64,000 nt of DNA from Wenjunlia vitaminophila DSM 41686 (GTDB lineage: Bacteria; Actinomycetota; Actinomycetes; Streptomycetales; Streptomycetaceae), in the NCBI RefSeq assembly GCF_000380165.1, contig NZ_KB904669.1, positions 62,185-126,184 of the forward strand, given 5' to 3'. A model generated the notes under the pieces. It had not been told where the DNA came from, made no database searches, and saw only the letters and a program-made list of their open reading frames with translations. Positions within the stretch are counted from its first letter, which is position 1, and the number at the start of each line of letters is the position of its first letter. A program made the translations under genes and the position numbers. Positions 1,698 to 21,870 of the stretch are shown in pieces.

Positions 1698-2639
1698 ATG
1701 AACAGCGCTCCGCACCTGCTGAGTGAAGACCGACCGGAGTTCGAACGGGTTCTTGACGAGGCCCTGCGCGACGAGGACATCAGGGTCGCGCTGGCCGAGG
1801 CCGCCCCGGGGCTGGGCTCCGACCACCTGCGCGGCCTGGCCGTCAACGCCACCGCCACCATCACCGCGTGCGCGGTGACCGAGTACGAGCACTACCTGAA
1901 GATCCGCACCCAGGCCCGGGAGCTCGCCTCCGGCCGGCGACGGGGCCGCCCCGCGACGTCCACCGGGGGCGCGGAGGACCAACGGGCCACGGACGGATCG
2001 TCCGTCCGACGGCTGAGCGGCGCCGTGGACGGGACCGCCGGGGCCGGCGTGGTCGCCGCGGTGGCTGTTCTGACCCCGATCCTCGCGGGCACCTCCGCCC
2101 TGATCCTCCTGGCCAGCGGCTACCTGCTGAAGCTGGCCGATCCCGACCCGGCGGTGGCCGCGCCGCTGCGCTTCGCCGGGTGGCTGTTCGCGGCGATCGC
2201 CGCCACCGGGACGCTGATCGGCATGATCGGGGTGATGTTCACCGCGCTGCGCAACCCCGCGGCGGACACCGCCACCCTCCACGCGGACCGTTCCCCCGAG
2301 GTGGTCGCGGCCCGCGAGTCCTGGCGCCGCGCCCTGCTCGAGCGGGGGGTACGACCGTTCCTGCTCCAGGCGCTGACCACCGGGGATATAGGGCACCCGG
2401 CAGCGGCCGAGCCCACACCGGCGCGCCAGGCCTCCGGCGGGGAGGTCCGCCGCACGCCGTCCCTGGGCTACTCGGCACCGGGATTCACCAGCCCGAACCC
2501 GGACGAACCAGGCGCCCACCGGAGCCCACCGGACTACGCCAGCCCGAGGTACACCAGTCCCAGGTACTCGGGGCCCTCGTACTCCGGCCCCGACTTCGAC
2601 ACGGGTGCGGGCGACGGCCCCGACCCGGGCCACGGCTGA
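1698..2639 (+). CDS. Two-pass membrane protein with Ser/Pro/Tyr-rich tail
   Basis: A 313-aa protein starts with ATG directly after a GGGGGAGG ribosome binding site. The N-terminal ~100 residues are soluble and helical. Two hydrophobic segments follow, at about 112-138 and 153-178, and then a cytoplasmic-type region. The last ~60 residues are low complexity, with repeated Y-x-S-P/G-P units. Similar two-pass proteins with disordered tails are common, uncharacterised products in Streptomyces. A membrane location is well supported by the sequence; the function is unknown. Confidence 0.65.
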   Translation: MNSAPHLLSEDRPEFERVLDEALRDEDIRVALAEAAPGLGSDHLRGLAVNATATITACAVTEYEHYLKIRTQARELASGRRRGRPATSTGGAEDQRATDGSSVRRLSGAVDGTAGAGVVAAVAVLTPILAGTSALILLASGYLLKLADPDPAVAAPLRFAGWLFAAIAATGTLIGMIGVMFTALRNPAADTATLHADRSPEVVAARESWRRALLERGVRPFLLQALTTGDIGHPAAAEPTPARQASGGEVRRTPSLGYSAPGFTSPNPDEPGAHRSPPDYASPRYTSPRYSGPSYSGPDFDTGAGDGPDPGHG

Positions 2640-5987: not shown

Positions 5988-7532
5988 TCACCGCCGCCGT
6001 CGCCGTCCCCCGCCCCGCCTCCGCGCGCCCCGACCGGCGCCCACCCCGGCCACCCCGGCCAGCTCGGCCCGCTCGGCCCGCTCGCCCCCGGCCGGAGGGT
6101 CAGCCGACGCGATCAGCGCGGCCAACGCCGTGGTCACCGGCACGGAGGCGACCAGGCCGATGCTGCCCACCAGGGTGCGGACGATCTCCTCCGCCACCAG
6201 TTCGCTGGTCGCCACCGTGGCCACGTCGCTGCGCGCGACCGAGAAGAGCAACAGCATCGGCAGGGCCGCCCCCGCGTAGGCGAGCACCAGCGTGTTCACG
6301 GTGGACGCGATGTGGTCCCGGCCGATCCGCAGCCCCGCCCGGTACAGCGCGGAGGCGGTCAACGCCGGGTTGGCCGCCTTCAGTTCCCACACCGCGGAGG
6401 TCTGGGTGACGGTGACGTCGTCCAGCACCCCGAGCGAACCGATGATGACGCTGGCCAGCAGGAGCCCCTGGATCTCGATGCCCGGGTAGAGGGCGTGTAC
6501 CAGACCGGTCTCGTCGGAGGTGTTGCCGGTCAGCGCCGCCCATTCGACGAACAGCGACCCCAGCAGCCCGATCAGGAGCAGCGAGACCAGCGTTCCCAGC
6601 ACCGCGACGGACGTCCGCGCGGACAGGCCGTGGCACAGGTACAACGCGGCCAGCATGATGGCGCCACCACCGACCACGGCCACCAGCAGCGGATTGGAAC
6701 CCTGGAGGATGGCCGGCAGGATGAACTGGGAGAGCACCCCGAAACTGATCACCAGGGCGATCAGCGCGGTCAGCCCCCTCAGCCGCCCCACCGCGACCAC
6801 CACCAGCGCGAACACCACGGCGAGCACCAGGACCGGAACCCCCCGCTGCACGTCGATGACGGAGTACCGCAACTCCGGTGGCGCCTGCGGGGCGTAGGCC
6901 ACCACCACCCCCTGCCCGTCGTGGTACTGGCGCGACTGGTCGGGCCTGACCACCTCGGTGAAGGTGGTCCCGCCGTCCTTGCCGCTGGTGACCTCGAACG
7001 TCACCAGCCGGCACCGGTCCGCGGCCTGCTCCCCACTGCCCGCGCCACCAGTTCCGGGAGCCGGCTGCTCCCTCGGTTCCCCCTGGCCCGGCGCGGCGTC
7101 CACGGCCGCGCAGGACCGGCCCTCGATCGAGACCACCTTCGCCCGCTCGGTGTGCTGGTCGAATCCCAGCCCCGTGTGCTCGTGCGGCGGCACCCCACCG
7201 GGCCACAGCACCACCAGGCCGGCCAGCACCGCCACCCCGAACGGGATCAGCACGGCCGCGATCACCTTCCGCAGACGCCCGGACACGGGCTCCGCCGGCC
7301 CGTGGGCGTGGGCGTGACCGTGCTGCGCGTGCTGCCCGTGGCCAGGCACGGGCTCGTGGCCGGGCCGCCCGTGACCGTGATCCGGTTGCCGGTGACCGTC
7401 GTGATCAGCAGGCCCGGGGCCCGGTGGTCGGCCCGGGTGCCCGGCCCCGTGGCCCTGCGCGGGGACACCCGGCTCCCACCCTCCCCCCGGCATCGTTCCG
7501 CCGCGCCGTTCCTCGTCACCCGGCTGCCGCAC
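5988..7532 (-). CDS. YibE/F family membrane protein
   Basis: A 514-aa protein with a GTG start at 7532 after GAGGAG. The N-terminal ~70 residues are Gly/His/Pro-rich, with repeated G-H-x-H units that could bind metal. TM1 (about 83-103) is followed by an extracytoplasmic beta domain (about 105-225) and then seven or more membrane helices. The motifs L-L-A-S-V-I-I-G-S-L-G-V-L-D-D-V-T-V-T-Q and A-S-T-V-N-T-L-V-L-A-Y are the hallmark of YibE/F-like proteins. These are polytopic proteins whose transport function has not been established. The tail is Arg/Gly-rich. It is divergent from thiC. Confidence 0.85.
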   Translation of the reverse strand: MRQPGDEERRGGTMPGGGWEPGVPAQGHGAGHPGRPPGPGPADHDGHRQPDHGHGRPGHEPVPGHGQHAQHGHAHAHGPAEPVSGRLRKVIAAVLIPFGVAVLAGLVVLWPGGVPPHEHTGLGFDQHTERAKVVSIEGRSCAAVDAAPGQGEPREQPAPGTGGAGSGEQAADRCRLVTFEVTSGKDGGTTFTEVVRPDQSRQYHDGQGVVVAYAPQAPPELRYSVIDVQRGVPVLVLAVVFALVVVAVGRLRGLTALIALVISFGVLSQFILPAILQGSNPLLVAVVGGGAIMLAALYLCHGLSARTSVAVLGTLVSLLLIGLLGSLFVEWAALTGNTSDETGLVHALYPGIEIQGLLLASVIIGSLGVLDDVTVTQTSAVWELKAANPALTASALYRAGLRIGRDHIASTVNTLVLAYAGAALPMLLLFSVARSDVATVATSELVAEEIVRTLVGSIGLVASVPVTTALAALIASADPPAGGERAERAELAGVAGVGAGRGARRRGGGRRRRR

Positions 7533-9605: not shown

Positions 9606-10370
9606 TCACCCCGGCAGCAGCCGGCCGATCTCGGTGAGCACCGCGTCCACGTGGGGACGGACCCGCGCCTTCAGCTCCCGGCTCCAGTTCTCCTGGGAGT
9701 AGGGCGTGGTGAGGTAGAGCTCCCTGGCGTGTTCCAGGACGGGGCGCTGTTCCGGGGGGAGCCGGGCGAGTGCCCAGTCAGCGGCGGCGTCCTTCGGCCT
9801 GATCTCGCCGGTGGCGAGCGTGGTCCAGACGCGCGCCAGGGTCAGCACGACGTTGCGGGTGTCGCACTCCAGGTCGTCGAGCAGGCCCGGAACGCCCGAC
9901 ACACTGGCCCGGACCAGGTCGGCGTGGGGAACGCGGTCCAGGACCCGCGCCGGTGGCGGGCCGCTGAGGGCGTGGTCACCGGACAGCACCATCGTGACCA
10001 GCAGGGCGAGGTCCGGCGTGGGCTCCGGCTGAGGGGGGCCACCCACCAGGAACTCGTGACGGAGCCACTCGCCGTAGAGGAAGTCGGCGGTCGGTGGGAA
10101 CCGCCACGGCCGGACCTCGGACTGGACGACCACGGTGAGCTCCACCGGGCGGAGCCCGTCCGGCGAACCGGACCCCGAGACCTCCAACAGCCCATCGAGG
10201 AGCGCCCGCCGTTCCCGGTCGTTCATGCTCCGCCGCGAGACGACGAGGACATCCACGTCACTGGCGGGTTTCAGGCCGCCGAGCACGCCGGACCCGTGGA
10301 GGTACGTCCCGATGGCCTCCGGCCCCAGGACACGGCCGACCAGGCCCGCGACCTCCTCGACCTGGTGCAT
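9606..10370 (-). CDS. AadA-like (ANT(3'')-type) nucleotidyltransferase
   Basis: A 254-aa protein, close to the ~260 aa of AadA aminoglycoside adenylyltransferases. The nucleotidyltransferase active site G-S-G-V-L-G-G-L-K-P-A-S-D-V-D-V-L-V is intact, with the GS and D-x-D metal ligands. F-L-Y-G-E-W-L-R and the C-terminal helical domain with K-D-A-A-A-D-W-A also match AadA. AadA enzymes AMPylate streptomycin and spectinomycin; chromosomal actinobacterial homologs are mostly untested. The start is the ATG at 10370 (M-H-Q-V-E-E-V). It is a stand-alone gene. Confidence 0.8.
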   Translation of the reverse strand: MHQVEEVAGLVGRVLGPEAIGTYLHGSGVLGGLKPASDVDVLVVSRRSMNDRERRALLDGLLEVSGSGSPDGLRPVELTVVVQSEVRPWRFPPTADFLYGEWLRHEFLVGGPPQPEPTPDLALLVTMVLSGDHALSGPPPARVLDRVPHADLVRASVSGVPGLLDDLECDTRNVVLTLARVWTTLATGEIRPKDAAADWALARLPPEQRPVLEHARELYLTTPYSQENWSRELKARVRPHVDAVLTEIGRLLPG

Positions 10371-15720: not shown

Positions 15721-16437
15721 ATGCGCACCCTACCCGCAGCCTGTGCGGTCACGGCCGCGGCGGCGGCCACGCTGCTGCTGCCCACGGCCGCGTTCGCTTC
15801 CCCTCCCGGTGACAACGGCACCGTCAAGATCCACGATGCCGAGACCGGCGAGGATCTCAAGGAGAACGACCCGCACGTCTGCGAGTTCTACCTCGACGCG
15901 TTCGGATTCGACGACCAACAGGACGTCGACTGGAAAATAGTTCAGTGGCCGCCCACGGCCGAGGTCAAGGGCAAGCTCGCCAAGTCCGGCTCCATCGTCC
16001 TGGACGACGAGGGGCACGGTCGGACCGAGGACATGACCCTGCCGGACGGCCACTACAAGCTGATCTGGAACTTCGAGGGCGAGAACGGCCGCGCCAAGCA
16101 CAAGGTCTTCTGGACCGACTGCGAGGACGACACGCCGTCGTCTCCCTCCCCCTCCACGTCCACCTCCGCCTCGCCGACGCCGTCGGAGTCCGCTTCGACC
16201 CCGGCCTCGCCGACGCCCAGCAACTCCTCGGCCACTCCGACCGAGTCCTCGGGCACGACCCCCAACGGTTCGGCGACGCCGACGACCCCCGCGCCCGGCC
16301 CCAAGGACGACAAGGGCGACAAGGACGGCAGCCTCGCCGAGACCGGTGCCTCGGTGGTCGGCATCTCCCTGGCGGCCCTGGCGCTGCTGGCCGGTGGCGC
16401 CGCGCTGATCTGGCGTCGCAAGTCACACCAGCACTGA
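15721..16437 (+). CDS. Sortase-anchored cell-wall protein (LAETG)
   Basis: A 238-aa secreted protein. The ATG at 15721, with AAGG upstream, begins a clear signal peptide ending around A-F-A-S; a GTG at 15682 would put a non-signal extension in front. A ~100-residue domain follows, with two Cys (C-E-F-Y and D-C-E-D) likely to pair. Next comes a Ser/Thr/Pro linker of ~60 residues, then L-A-E-T-G, a hydrophobic helix and a basic tail. LAxTG is the preferred site of class E sortases in Streptomyces. The external ligand is unknown. Confidence 0.85.
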   Translation: MRTLPAACAVTAAAAATLLLPTAAFASPPGDNGTVKIHDAETGEDLKENDPHVCEFYLDAFGFDDQQDVDWKIVQWPPTAEVKGKLAKSGSIVLDDEGHGRTEDMTLPDGHYKLIWNFEGENGRAKHKVFWTDCEDDTPSSPSPSTSTSASPTPSESASTPASPTPSNSSATPTESSGTTPNGSATPTTPAPGPKDDKGDKDGSLAETGASVVGISLAALALLAGGAALIWRRKSHQH

Positions 16438-16449
16438 GCACTGCGCACT

Positions 16450-16519
16450 GCGCGCTGAGCACTGCGCGCTGAGCACTGCGCGCTGAGCACTGCGCGCTGA
16501 GCACTGCGCGCTGAGCGCT
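16450..16519. repeat. 14-bp tandem repeat, five copies
   Basis: Five consecutive units of GCGCGCTGAGCACT run from 16450 to 16519, the last with one change. Degenerate half-units extend the array to about 16431 on the left and 16540 on the right. The array starts just after the stop of the LAETG gene and runs up to its terminator, so it would be transcribed as 3' UTR. Confidence 0.9.
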
Positions 16520-16541
16520 GGGCACTGACGACTGACCGCTG

Positions 16542-16600
16542 ACGGCGGCAGCCAGAACCCGGCCCGGAACAGATCCGGGCCGGGTGGGCTGCCGCCGTTT
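16542..16600 (+). terminator. Two-level nested hairpin terminator
   Basis: The outer arms ACGGCGGCAGCC / GGCTGCCGCCGT and inner arms CCCGGCCCGG / CCGGGCCGGG form one long stem with an internal loop, followed by TT. It ends the sortase-substrate transcript. Confidence 0.8.
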
Positions 16601-16773: not shown

Positions 16774-17799
16774 ATGAACACGATGGTGGGTACCCACGAC
16801 TCGACGCTGCCCACTTCCGAGCGGATCACCCGATTACGGGAGCTCTGCCTCGGCCTGCCGGTGGCCGTGCGGGTCGAGCCCGACCCCTCGCTGCCCTTCC
16901 GGGGCGACACCTCCTTCATCGATCTCGGCGCCGTGTCGCTCCTGTCCGTGCACGCGTCACCGAGCGAGCTGCGCAGGACCCGGAAGATGATCGGGTGCTC
17001 CGATCCCGGGATGCTCAGACTCGACCTGTTGCACCACGGCAGGAAGGTCTTCCGTCTGGACCGGCAGGAGACCGAGCTGCGCCCCGGCGAGCTGCTGCTC
17101 TCCGACAGTTCCCAGGAGTTCCACGTCTCCACCGTGGCGGCGGACGGCGACACGTGGGGGACGGTCATGATGTTCCCGCGCACCCTGCTGCCGCTGAGTC
17201 CGCACCTCCTGAAGCACTCGCTCGGCACCCCCCTCCCGGGCCGTGACGGCGTGGGAGCGCTGCTCTCCGGCCTGCTGACCACCCTGACCTCGGACAACGG
17301 TCAGTTCGAGCGCTGTGACACGGACAGCCTGGGCCGGGTGGTGCTGGACCTGCTGGCAGCGATGTGCGTCACCCGGCTCGACGCCTGTGACGCGCCGGCC
17401 CCCGAGTCCGGACGACGCGCCCTACGGGTGCGGATACGCAGCTTCATCCTGCACCACCTCCACGACCCGTGGCTCGATCCGCGCACGATCGCAGCGGCGC
17501 ACAACATCTCCGTGCGTTACCTGCACAAACTGTTCCAGGACGAGGGCTGCACCGTCGCCGAGTGGATACGCCAGCGCCGGCTGGAGCGCTGCCAGCGCGA
17601 CCTGGCCAACCCCGCGCTGTGCCACCGCCCGATCCGCACCATCGCCACATGCTGGGGTTTTCCCAACGCCGCGCACTTCAGCCGGGCGTTCAGGGCCGCC
17701 TACGGCCTGCCACCCCGGGAGTACCGGGAGCGTTCCCTCCACGGCGCAGCGGTGCGTCACCCGGCAAGTGTTGGGCGCTCGGTGGCAACGACTTCCTGA
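16774..17799 (+). CDS. AraC-family transcriptional regulator
   Basis: A 341-aa protein behind a GGGGGA site. Residues ~1-200 form an AraC-binding-2 type cupin-like sensor domain. Residues ~220-325 are a double helix-turn-helix (T-I-A-A-A-H-N-I-S-V-R-Y-L-H-K-L-F; second unit I-R-T-I-A-T-C-W-G-F-P-N-A-A-H-F-S-R-A-F). It is the first gene of a same-strand set with the 102-aa protein and two halogenase-like enzymes, so it is the likely local regulator. The inducer is unknown. Confidence 0.9.
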   Translation: MNTMVGTHDSTLPTSERITRLRELCLGLPVAVRVEPDPSLPFRGDTSFIDLGAVSLLSVHASPSELRRTRKMIGCSDPGMLRLDLLHHGRKVFRLDRQETELRPGELLLSDSSQEFHVSTVAADGDTWGTVMMFPRTLLPLSPHLLKHSLGTPLPGRDGVGALLSGLLTTLTSDNGQFERCDTDSLGRVVLDLLAAMCVTRLDACDAPAPESGRRALRVRIRSFILHHLHDPWLDPRTIAAAHNISVRYLHKLFQDEGCTVAEWIRQRRLERCQRDLANPALCHRPIRTIATCWGFPNAAHFSRAFRAAYGLPPREYRERSLHGAAVRHPASVGRSVATTS

Positions 17800-18068
17800 G
17801 CGCCGCCGACCACCCTGTTAGGGCACGGACCCGAAGGCGGCGAACGCGGGCGCTCGACGCGGCTGTCGCCCGGCGGTTCCCGGCACCACCACCGACCGAC
17901 TCCGAGTGGGGCGAGCCGCGCCCGGGGGCCGCACGGCCTCGCCCACCGTCCCCGTCCCTGGTGTTCGCGTCGCCCGCCGGTGCGCCGACGCGCTCCGGCG
18001 GGCACCGGGGACGACGCGGTCGGGCCGGCGACCGAGCCCGGTCCCCACACCAACGAGGGAGGACGAGG

Positions 18069-18377
18069 ATGCGCTACACCGAGGGACCGCGCCAGCCGGG
18101 CGGCTCGCCCACGGAGGCAGCGGAGTGGTGGTGGACACCCCCCGAGGCCCACGACGTGGCCCTGGCCGCTCCCGGCGGTGCCGCTCCCGGCCGTGCCGGT
18201 TCCGTGTTGGGCACGGTCCGCGCCTGGGTGGACCTGATGGTCCTGCTGACCCCGACCGTGCTCGTCCGGGTGCGGGCGTGGGCCGCCCACAGGGCTCCGA
18301 GGGGCGTGCGCCCGCTGCTCCTCCGGGCCCCCGTGCCCACGGCGAAGAAGCACGTCAAGGACACGAAGACCTCCTAG
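18069..18377 (+). CDS. 102-aa small protein in the halogenase operon
   Basis: ATG at 18069 after a strong GGGAGGA site at 6-nt spacing. The product has an unusual A-E-W-W-W-T-P-P-E stretch near residue 20, a hydrophobic segment around 58-72 (L-M-V-L-L-T-P-T-V-L-V) and a basic C-terminus ending K-K-H-V-K-D-T-K-T-S. Its TAG stop is embedded in the AGGAG site of the next gene, so the two are coupled. No family is recognised. It could be a partner or carrier peptide for the flavoenzymes, or a small membrane protein. The preceding ~270 bp show no gene. Confidence 0.5.
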   Translation: MRYTEGPRQPGGSPTEAAEWWWTPPEAHDVALAAPGGAAPGRAGSVLGTVRAWVDLMVLLTPTVLVRVRAWAAHRAPRGVRPLLLRAPVPTAKKHVKDTKTS

Positions 18378-18391
18378 GAGAAGAAACGTCC

Positions 18392-20131
18392 ATGCATACT
18401 GACGCGGACACCTACGACGTGGCGGTCCTCGGCTCCGGGATGACCGGCGCGCTGATCGGGGCCTGCCTCGCCCGCAACAGCGCCAAGGTCGTGATCATCG
18501 ACTCGGGCACCCATCCACGACTCACCCTTGGCGAGGGGGAGTCCACCCCGCTGTACACCGGCATGCTCCTGCGCCTGATCGCGGAGCGCTACGGAGTCCC
18601 GGAGATCAAGTACCTGGCGTCCTTCGAGGCGGCGCAGTCGAAGATCTCGCGCAACGGGGGCGTGGCCCGGAACTTCGGCTACGTCTACCACCGTGAGGGC
18701 CGGCGGCAGGACCCGCGTGAGGCCCACATGCTCCAGCCCCCCACGATGGGCTTCACCCCGCACCACCTGTTCCGGCAGGACACCGACGCCTGGTTGCTGA
18801 CCGTCGCGGCGAAGTACGGCGCGGACGTTCGGCAGCAGCAGCGCGTCACCGACGTCGACGTGACGGAGGACGCGGTCACCATCGGACTGGACGGCAAGCC
18901 GCCGATCCGCGCCAGGTACGTGGTGGACGCCGGCGGCGAGCGCTCCGTGCTCGCCGAGCGGTTCGCGCTGCGCGAGGGACCGAGCCGGTTCCGCCACCAC
19001 GCCCGGACGCTCGCCAACCACATGCTCGGGGTGCGACCGTACGACGAGATCGCACCGACGCGCCGCTACGGCAACCCCGGCCCCTGGCACGAGGGCAGCC
19101 TGCACCACGTCTTCCACGGCGGCTGGATGTGGGTGTACCCGTACGGCAACCACCCGCGCTCGACCAACCCGCTGTGCGGTGTGGGCCTGCAACTCGACCC
19201 CCGGGTCCACCCGGCGCCGGACTGCTCCCCGGAGGAGGAGTTCCGCCGCTTCGTCGCCCGGTTCCCGGACATCGCCGCACAGTTCGACGGTGCCGTGCCG
19301 GTGCAGGAGTGGGTGCGCACCGAACGCCGCCAGTACTCCTCCAAGCAGGTGATGGGCCACCGGTGGTTCCTGGCCGCCAACAGCGCCGGGTTCGTCGATC
19401 CGCTCTTCTCCGGCGACCTGACCGTCGGTCTGGAGACGGTGCACGCGCTGACGCACCGGCTGCTCGACGCCGTCCGGGAGGACGACTTCGCCACGGAGCG
19501 CTTCGAGGACGTGCGGGACCTGGTGGAGGACCTGCTCGACAACAACGACGACGTGTGCGCCAACGCCTTCGTCTCGTTCCGTGACTTCTCCCTGTGGGAC
19601 GTCTGGTACCGGGTCTGGTACACCCGCCAGATCCTGAGGACGTACGAGATCAACCGCCGGTATGCCAACTTCCTGCGGAACCGGGACACCGCCGAGCTCG
19701 CGGTCCTGGAACGTCCCTGGTGGCGGGGGCGGAAACCGCCGCAGGACGTGCCGTACGCACCGGCGGTGCGCTTCCTGCAGGAGGCCAACGAGCGGTTCCA
19801 GGCGATAGGACGCGGTGAGGCGGGGGCCGAGACCGCCGCCACCGACCTGATGCGGCAGTTGAGCGAGGGCACCTTCACCCCGCCCGTCTTCGGTCTCGGC
19901 GATCCCCGGCTCCAGTGGACGTCCCTGCCCACCCGCAAGATGGCGGAGACCCTGAACTGGACGAGGAGAACGGCCCCGCGGGACATCGCGGAACTCACCC
20001 TGGACGGCCTGTTCCTCTTCATGCGGGTGCGTCTGGCCAGGGGTGAGTCCCATGTGGGGGAGGAGCTCAGGCAGCTCGTGGCCGGCCGGCCCAGGCTCGG
20101 CAGGCGGCTGCGGGTTCCCACGCCGAAGTAG
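18392..20131 (+). CDS. Flavin-dependent halogenase-like oxidoreductase (atypical, lacks catalytic Lys)
   Basis: A 579-aa FAD enzyme of the tryptophan-halogenase superfamily. The N-terminal Rossmann motif is G-S-G-M-T-G (residues 14-19), and G-E-G-E-S-T-P follows at ~47. The halogenase signature GWxWxIP appears as G-W-M-W-V-Y-P (244-250), with Tyr for Ile. Where halogenases carry the chlorine-activating lysine, this protein has Ala92 (G-V-A-R-N-F-G), while its neighbour has Lys. The C-terminal ~200 residues form an extra helical domain. It may perform oxidation or epoxidation rather than halogenation, or act as a partner of the second enzyme. Confidence 0.75.
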   Translation: MHTDADTYDVAVLGSGMTGALIGACLARNSAKVVIIDSGTHPRLTLGEGESTPLYTGMLLRLIAERYGVPEIKYLASFEAAQSKISRNGGVARNFGYVYHREGRRQDPREAHMLQPPTMGFTPHHLFRQDTDAWLLTVAAKYGADVRQQQRVTDVDVTEDAVTIGLDGKPPIRARYVVDAGGERSVLAERFALREGPSRFRHHARTLANHMLGVRPYDEIAPTRRYGNPGPWHEGSLHHVFHGGWMWVYPYGNHPRSTNPLCGVGLQLDPRVHPAPDCSPEEEFRRFVARFPDIAAQFDGAVPVQEWVRTERRQYSSKQVMGHRWFLAANSAGFVDPLFSGDLTVGLETVHALTHRLLDAVREDDFATERFEDVRDLVEDLLDNNDDVCANAFVSFRDFSLWDVWYRVWYTRQILRTYEINRRYANFLRNRDTAELAVLERPWWRGRKPPQDVPYAPAVRFLQEANERFQAIGRGEAGAETAATDLMRQLSEGTFTPPVFGLGDPRLQWTSLPTRKMAETLNWTRRTAPRDIAELTLDGLFLFMRVRLARGESHVGEELRQLVAGRPRLGRRLRVPTPK

Positions 20132-20202
20132 CCGGCCGCAACGCTCCCCTTTCCCCAAGCCCCGGGGGCCCGTGTCCCCCGCCGTACCAACGGAGGAGTT
20201 CC

Positions 20203-21870
20203 GTGCGCGCAACACAGAACGGGTCCGCGCAGTTGTACGACGTCGCCATCATCGGCACCGGCCTTGGCGGCTCCATGCTCGGGGCCATCCTGGCCCGCAA
20301 CGGGGCCCGGGTCCTGCTCCTGGACCAGACCGAACACCCCAAGTTCGCCATCGGCGAGTCCACGATCCCCAACATGCTGGTGAGCCTGCGCACCATGGCG
20401 GCACGGTACGACGTGCCCGAGTTGGTGACCCTGTCCTCCTTCGCGGGATGCCAACGGATCATCGGCCCCTCGAACGGGGTGAAGAACCACTTCGGCTTCC
20501 TCGTTCACCAGGAGGGCAGGCAACAGGACCCCGCGCAGGTCACGATGTACAACTTCACCAAACTGATCTACCCGACGGCGCACTTCTACCGGCAGGACAC
20601 CGACGCCTACCTGCTCCGGGTGGCCGTCGGGTACGGCTGCGCGCTGCGGCAGCGGTTCCGCACGGCGTCGGTCGAGTTCGACGACTCCGGCGTCACCATC
20701 ACCGGGGACTCCGGCGAGGAGTTCCGGTCCCGGTACGTCGTGGACGCCAGTGGCTACCGGTCGGTGATCGCTGAGAAGTTCGGCCTGCGCGAGGACCCGT
20801 GCCGCTACAAGCACCACTCACGGTCGATCTGGAACCACATGATCGACGTGCCCGACACCGACCAGGTCTTCGCCCGCCCGACGGCGGACGCACCCCCGGT
20901 GCCCTGGTACGAAGGAACGATTCACCACCTGTTCGAGCGCGGCTGGTTCTGGGTCATCCCGTTCAACAACGACCCGAGTTCCCGCAACCCGCTGTGCAGC
21001 GTGGGACTCACCCTGGACCCGCGGCGGTACCCCGTGGACCACTCGCTCACCCCGGAACAGGAGTTCTGGGCGCACGCACGGCGCTTCCCCGACATCGCCC
21101 GGCAGTTCGCCGGGGCCCGGCCGGTGCGGGAGTGGGTGCGCACCGACAGGCTCCAGTACTCCTCCAGCCGCACGGTCGGCGACCGGTGGGCCCTGCTGTC
21201 GCACGCCGCGGGCTTCATCGACCCGCTGTTCTCCCGCGGCATGTCCAACACGTGCGAGGTCGTCAACGTGCTGGCGTGGCGGCTGTTGCGCGCGACCCGC
21301 GACGGGGACTTCTCGGCGGAACGCTTCCGCGCGGTGGACCGATTCCAGCAGGCCCTGCTCACCGGCAACGACGAACTGGTCAACGCGGCGTTCATCTCCT
21401 TCGAGGACTACCGCCTGTGGTCGGCGGTGTTCCGGATCTGGGCCTGGGGTTCGAACGCGGGGTCGTTCCGGGCCCACGAGGCGTTCCGGCGGTGGCGGGC
21501 GGACGGTGACGAACGGCACCTGCTCGAGCTGGAGGACGCGGAGAACCCCGAGCTGCACTGGTCCGACCACGAGGGCTACCGGCAGATGTTCAGCACCATG
21601 GTGGAGCGGTGCGGGGCGTACGAGGCCGGGCGGGTCACCGCCCGCGAGGCCGCCGACGCGCTGCACGAGCAACTGGCGTCGGCCTCGTACGTCCCCCGCT
21701 ACTACGGCTGGGACGACCCGACGCTGCGGTTCATCAACCCCACGTCGAAGGTCATGGCCAAGACCATGTGGTGGGCTCTGCGGGAGGCCCCACCGGATGT
21801 CCGGCGGATCATGCTCGGCTTCGGCCGCGAGGCCACGAAGGAGGTCCTGAGAGGCCGCCGGATCTTCTGA
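20203..21870 (+). CDS. Flavin-dependent halogenase-like enzyme
   Basis: A 555-aa protein starting with GTG after GGAGGAG. It has a G-T-G-L-G-G FAD motif (18-23), G-E-S-T-I-P-N (51-57), a candidate catalytic Lys94 in G-V-K-N-H-F-G-F, and a complete G-W-F-W-V-I-P motif (247-253). These are the residues by which FADH2-dependent halogenases are recognised. The substrate is unknown. The protein is homologous along its whole length to the preceding gene, indicating an old tandem duplication. A separate flavin reductase would be needed; none is in the cluster, though a flavodoxin-like protein lies at 31 kb. Confidence 0.8.
   Translation: MRATQNGSAQLYDVAIIGTGLGGSMLGAILARNGARVLLLDQTEHPKFAIGESTIPNMLVSLRTMAARYDVPELVTLSSFAGCQRIIGPSNGVKNHFGFLVHQEGRQQDPAQVTMYNFTKLIYPTAHFYRQDTDAYLLRVAVGYGCALRQRFRTASVEFDDSGVTITGDSGEEFRSRYVVDASGYRSVIAEKFGLREDPCRYKHHSRSIWNHMIDVPDTDQVFARPTADAPPVPWYEGTIHHLFERGWFWVIPFNNDPSSRNPLCSVGLTLDPRRYPVDHSLTPEQEFWAHARRFPDIARQFAGARPVREWVRTDRLQYSSSRTVGDRWALLSHAAGFIDPLFSRGMSNTCEVVNVLAWRLLRATRDGDFSAERFRAVDRFQQALLTGNDELVNAAFISFEDYRLWSAVFRIWAWGSNAGSFRAHEAFRRWRADGDERHLLELEDAENPELHWSDHEGYRQMFSTMVERCGAYEAGRVTAREAADALHEQLASASYVPRYYGWDDPTLRFINPTSKVMAKTMWWALREAPPDVRRIMLGFGREATKEVLRGRRIF

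Follow-up and report, generated by a model that had tools for sequence, protein, structure and literature searches.

The locus examined here raises the question of what two adjacent halogenase homologs do beside a regulator gene when only one of them retains the catalytic lysine of its family. It lies in a 64,000-nucleotide stretch of Wenjunlia vitaminophila DSM 41686 DNA (hereafter 'the window') and consists of four features on the forward strand, whose coordinates and motifs were all given correctly in the original prediction. The first encodes a 341-amino-acid AraC/FeaR-like transcriptional regulator (16774-17799) carrying the Pfam domains HTH_18 and AraC_binding_2. The last two encode full-length paralogs, 41% identical over 541 amino acids (E 3e-140), that we call FDH1 (579 amino acids, ATG start, 18392-20131) and FDH2 (555 amino acids, GTG start, 20203-21870). 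Located 14 bp upstream of FDH1 is a 102-amino-acid open reading frame (18069-18377) of doubtful coding status. It has a good GC3 value (0.91, with a GC2 of 0.62) and a plausible RBS-like sequence (GGGAGGACGAGG); it matches nothing in Pfam or NCBIfam, lacks a convincing homolog in the loci and 21 genomes searched, and has no counterpart at a sister locus on contig C1 of the same genome.

The locus had been described as having no PKS, NRPS or reductase gene nearby. This description holds within the window, where about 34 scanned proteins include no PKS or NRPS domain, no prolyl ligase and no PCP, and where no FAD reductase gene adjoins the FDH pair; the nearest flavin-reductase-like gene is of the FMN_red/flavodoxin type and lies ~9 kb away. 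It fails at the scale of the genome, in which prolyl ligase and PCP genes and a matching PKS cluster with a flavin reductase reside on contig C21. Two other features of the window are a 14-bp tandem repeat of about seven copies (AGCACTGCGCGCTG) followed by a long GC-rich inverted repeat (16430-16542), which sits between an upstream gene of secreted type and the AraC gene, and a gene at 9606-10370 carrying AadA_C, the C-terminal domain of aminoglycoside adenylyltransferases.

Both proteins belong to the CtcP/PltM family of phenolic halogenases

The best solved relatives of both FDH proteins are CtcP, the tetracycline 7-halogenase (PDB 7v0b, 7xgb), and PltM, the phloroglucinol halogenase of Pseudomonas (PDB 6bza), with PltA and CmlS far behind. 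The two proteins score 630 and 440 bits against CtcP, which is the best sequence match of each, 309 and 296 bits against PltM, and 76 and 61 bits against PltA. The match of FDH2 to CtcP is full-length (E 3e-188) and that to PltM has an E value of 4e-91, and FDH1 is ~30% identical to PltM in the alignment made with the FDH1 model. Both are similar in length to CtcP, and the similarity to the phenolic subfamily extends through the C-terminal helical region.

The catalytic lysine of these enzymes is Lys98 in CtcP and Lys87 in PltM, and Arg349 lines the CtcP substrate pocket (PMC12400496). FDH2, a putative phenolic halogenase, carries the flavin motif GTGLGG at residue 18, Lys94 and the sequence GWFWVIP, and it retains the equivalents of CtcP Lys98, Arg349 and Phe101. 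FDH1 likewise keeps the GxGxxG signature of the flavin-binding fold, as GSGMTG at residue 14. Unlike CtcP, FDH1 lacks the equivalents of Lys98, Arg349 and Gly350, and both proteins differ from CtcP at pocket residues 61 and 456.

FDH1 has lost active-site residues and retains the predicted fold

The proposal that the locus combines one halogenase with one diverged copy is backed by alignment, by a count of conserved sites and by a confident structural model. In the column of CtcP Lys98 and PltM Lys87, FDH2 has Lys94 and FDH1 has Ala92, as predicted, and lysine is present in all other members of the clade to which FDH1 belongs. The FDH1 sequence around this column reads GGVARNFGY, compared with GVKRNFGF or a near variant in its orthologs. 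The WxWxIP motif is also altered in FDH1 (GWMWVYP), in that a tyrosine replaces an isoleucine that is near-invariant in the reference proteins. A catalytic lysine displaced to another position would have undone the original reading of FDH1, and we found no replacement lysine in the aligned segment.

These changes are part of a broader pattern. Among 108 columns that are near-invariant in 50 Lys-bearing relatives, FDH1 departs at 21 and FDH2 at 6, whereas the Lys-bearing references depart at an average of 0.72 and at most 5. The FDH1 changes include, in CtcP numbering, Lys98 to Ala, Ile256 to Tyr, Phe258 to Tyr, His338 to Asn, Arg349 to Gly, Gly350 to Asp and Asn353 to Val, along with a two-residue insert in or just before the GEST loop, and many of the changes strike the halogenation machinery.

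We modeled FDH1 from an alignment of 20 relatives and obtained a pLDDT of 84 and a pTM of 0.88, whereas a model made without an alignment reached a pLDDT of only 38. The two altered loops, residues 41-50 and 331-340, are modeled with low confidence. The top-ranked PDB match of the model is CtcP (TM 0.86 by query, 0.92 by target), and because the model is confident and resembles CtcP best, the fold is predicted to be intact. Given the missing lysine and the other lost active-site residues, FDH1 is very probably a folded protein that does not halogenate, and it probably still binds FAD.

Orthologous pairs reside in pyrrolic polyketide clusters

Across 395 family genomes, including that of the window (G000), sequence searches identified FDH1 orthologs of 50-56% identity in G001, G112, G323, G353, G360, G362 and G373. 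Most of these genomes also encode, in an adjacent gene, an FDH2 ortholog of 58-63% identity. In G001, G112, G323, G353, G360 and G362, the orthologous pairs stand beside genes for large PKS, prolyl-ligase-like and flavin-reductase-like proteins, and other neighbors include a third halogenase-like gene (FDH3) and genes for transporters and for proteins that resemble acyl-CoA dehydrogenases and carrier proteins. The idea of a small pathway without assembly-line genes thus describes the position of the window pair and not its ancestry among pairs embedded in PKS clusters.

The C21 cluster of the same genome encodes a prolyl ligase, a PCP, an acyl-CoA dehydrogenase, a PKS, a halogenase, a flavin reductase and its own Lys-bearing FDH pair. 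Its AMP ligase (best match 6o6e) most closely resembles L-proline--[L-prolyl-carrier protein] ligase, and its 451-amino-acid halogenase is Mpy16-like (best match 5buk, E 6e-231) and closest to Mpy16 and PltA. Pfam assigns the flavin reductase, the carrier protein, the acyl-CoA dehydrogenase and a PKS of KS-AT-KR-ACP-reductase composition. Such genes are hallmarks of the pyrrolomycin, marinopyrrole and pyoluteorin clusters (PMC12670696). Judged by gene content, the orthologs of the window pair belong to pyrrolic type I PKS clusters of this kind, equipped with a predicted prolyl-AMP ligase and flavin reductase. Their likeness to the phenol-ring halogenases McsD-G of pyrrolomycin and Mpy10/Mpy11 of marinopyrrole comes from cluster descriptions, not from sequence. 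Unlike the pairs in such clusters, the window pair has no PKS beside it (a difference from CtcP as well), adjoins an AraC gene, and includes a member that has lost its lysine.

A phylogenetic tree places FDH1 inside the FDH1 clade of the clusters (99/99) and FDH2 inside their FDH2 clade (100/99). The end branches are long, at 0.99 for FDH1, the longest of its clade, and 0.56 for FDH2, against a median of 0.12, and dN/dS values between the window proteins and their orthologs are near saturation and do not enter the argument. FDH2 of C21 and the FDH on C1 are sisters, and therefore the window pair has not been copied recently from the C21 pair. Rather, it is a separate and apparently early-branching member of each clade, with an exact position blurred by the long branches, and on this phylogeny we regard it as a detached, fast-evolving member of both. 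Our samples of the family, order and class include no closer relative, a search of GTDB contigs returned distant matches only, and plasmid matches do not exceed 44% identity.

The C21 cluster also carries two identical copies of a 16-bp sequence, GTCCGGAACCGACGGT, at positions 2437-2452 (- strand) and 6126-6141 (+ strand) of the extracted locus L017. One copy precedes the acyl-CoA dehydrogenase gene and the other lies in the gap that separates FDH3 from the gene for the carrier protein, and the sequence is possibly an operator of this pyrrole-polyketide cluster. Two more CtcP-like halogenases stand alone on contigs C13 and C1 (L019, 8594-10249; L020, 9748-11418), and the genome encodes seven CtcP-like family members in all. 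The C13 protein falls together with the second of the FDH2-like copies in the five-halogenase clusters of G323 and G362.

The catalytic lysine has been lost at four places in the tree

Halogenase homologs that have lost their motifs are known from related pathways. PltD and McsG lack halogenase motifs (PMC12670696), and PltD is reported, according to a citation of Yi 2022 in the same source, to be an aromatizing dehydratase. FDH3 also lacks WxWxIP. The PltD-like status of the FDH3 clade is presumed from this motif loss, PltD itself being outside the set of sequences in the tree. FDH1 resembles PltD and McsG in being a halogenase homolog with lost motifs that is predicted not to halogenate. We considered whether FDH1 is itself a PltD-like FDH3 member and rejected this idea, as the tree assigns it to the FDH1 clade and not to the 10-row FDH3 clade; its motif loss is therefore independent of the PltD-like clade.

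Overall, the lysine has been lost at four separate places in the tree, with replacement by Ala (FDH1), Leu (G260 and G341), Arg (G373) or Gln (FDH3-like proteins of G129 and G031), and each Lys-less copy adjoins a Lys-bearing copy. Two species retain the Leu copies, at an NG86 dN/dS of 0.41 (0.23 for the Lys-bearing partner), and two retain the Gln copies, at a value of 0.23 (0.14 for the partner). As measured by these ratios, constraint on the Leu and Gln copies is relaxed, yet present. A rule that lysine is lost only in tandem pairs was not significant; most Lys-bearing members are tandem too, and because of this the pattern of lysine loss does not prove a paired function.

The Leu copies belong to orthologous tandem pairs, each with one Leu and one Lys member, that have differing gene surroundings in G341 (L065, 9002-12455) and G260 (L064, 9203-12685); the few L065 neighbors scanned include neither a PKS nor an NRPS. 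G373 has three FDH genes near a PKS gene (L060, 7602-14265), the last of which has the Arg replacement and a long branch.

A detached tailoring pair as the proposed function

We consider the chances about even that the locus is a detached, AraC-linked FDH1-FDH2 tailoring pair, in which FDH2 halogenates a free phenol and FDH1 serves either as a partner without halogenating activity or as a flavoenzyme turned to another role. In the mechanism that we propose, FDH2 would receive FADH2 from a reductase whose gene lies outside the locus, such as that on C21, and FADH2, O2 and halide would yield HOX. The HOX would travel to Lys94 and chlorinate or brominate a free, electron-rich phenol; the likeliest candidates are a small resorcinol and the phenol ring of the pyrrolic polyketide attributed to C21. 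That the substrate would be free agrees with membership of the CtcP/PltM family. Owing to changes at Lys98 and Arg349, at the Ile of WxWxIP and at the Gly of the S-x-G loop (CtcP numbering), FDH1 would be unable to guide HOX, although it would keep its fold and FAD-binding motif. Its role may be that of a non-halogenating partner, or of a flavoenzyme repurposed in the way that PltD was, with the substrate of FDH2 as its own. The window pair probably differs slightly in function from its relatives. Three points count against this proposal: no regulatory site was found that would tie the window pair to the C21 product, FDH2 evolves faster than its orthologs, which fits a general relaxation, and FDH1 may be a gene that died recently.

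The main rival explanation is indeed decay. FDH1 might be a duplicate without function, the pair being a leftover module separated from its PKS cluster, of which FDH2 alone or neither member works. The extreme end branch of FDH1, the loss of residues throughout its active site, the acceleration of FDH2, the Lys-bearing FDH pair already present on C21 and the absence of the locus from the one congener examined are all as expected from such decay. However, FDH1 is open over 579 codons and has a host-like GC3 of 0.93 and an RBS, whereas neutral walks to similar divergence accumulated a mean of 5.6 stop codons (minimum 0 in 60 runs). The Leu lineage described above, in which a Lys-less copy and its Lys-bearing neighbor are both kept in two species, also speaks against decay. 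On balance, we judge decay to be a distinct but lesser possibility than a detached tailoring pair.

Does the AraC regulator belong to the unit?

The closest paralog of the AraC protein in the genome is 55% identical and the next is 47% identical. The 55% paralog (at 122357 on C1) is encoded directly upstream of an FDH2-like gene, and this recurrence is the best evidence that the regulator belongs to the unit. Conservation of the four-gene order had been suggested as a check, and among the sampled relatives the order is present only in this genome; we therefore rejected it as a conserved arrangement, the sister C1 locus having AraC and one FDH without the 102-amino-acid frame or FDH1. Among the matches listed in the 394 other family genomes, no AraC gene stands beside an FDH gene. 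In a search for an AraC operator common to the window, C1 and C21, nothing linking them rose above all shuffled controls, the 16-bp C21 repeat does not match the window above chance, and no shared regulatory site was found that would link the window pair to the C21 product.

An arrangement of a regulator gene and a halogenase gene recalls PltM, which belongs to the same family and whose gene forms a predicted bicistron with the regulator gene pltR; chlorinated phloroglucinols act as signals in that system (PMC5395296). The locus could by analogy encode a signaling module, in which a chlorinated phenol made by the halogenase is sensed by the adjacent regulator, which in turn switches on a biosynthetic cluster. 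The precedent of a regulator gene paired with an inducer-making halogenase (PMC5395296) and the position of the AraC gene and its 55% identical paralog, each immediately upstream of an FDH gene, favor this idea. However, the regulator is of the AraC type, not LysR as in PltR, PltM is a single halogenase, operator-like sites common to the C1 module or C21 were not found, and AraC-FDH adjacency is confined to this genome among the matches listed. The sole strong type III PKS match is on another contig, C68. We regard a signaling module as improbable.

We hold it equally improbable that FDH1 and FDH2 form an obligate heterodimer, with FDH1 in a structural or allosteric role, or that they jointly couple rings as do Mpy10/Mpy11, which are reported to be FADH2-dependent halogenase homologs that couple pyrroles in marinopyrrole biosynthesis (PMC12942903); the genes are adjacent and co-directional, and the protomers of the CtcP dimer are linked by an Arg310-Asp151 salt bridge for which FDH1 offers Asp151 and Val310 and FDH2 Ala151 and Arg310, such that a bridge is possible only between FDH2 and FDH1, but two residues in one pair may match by chance, positions 151 and 310 vary freely among orthologous pairs, PltM is monomeric in solution, and the likeness to Mpy10/Mpy11 is by description, not by sequence. 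The bridge is suggestive at best. The chances given to the signaling and heterodimer readings overlap, since each describes one particular way in which the pair could function. Similarly doubtful is the wider proposal that a halogenase and a Lys-less pseudo-halogenase form an obligate heteromer, or a signal unit sensed by AraC, that was reached separately in several actinobacterial lineages.

Implications for lysine-less halogenase homologs

Halogenase homologs that have lost the catalytic lysine are easily misannotated as halogenases. The FDH1-FDH2 locus offers a clean test of what such proteins do, as the lysine is present in the closest orthologs, an intact partner is encoded by the adjacent gene, and Lys-bearing cluster copies reside in the same genome. 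It could reveal whether lost-lysine copies are dead, have become structural partners or have turned into new catalysts. Furthermore, if the AraC protein senses a halogenated product, the locus would represent a second case of a PltM-family enzyme that makes a regulatory signal.
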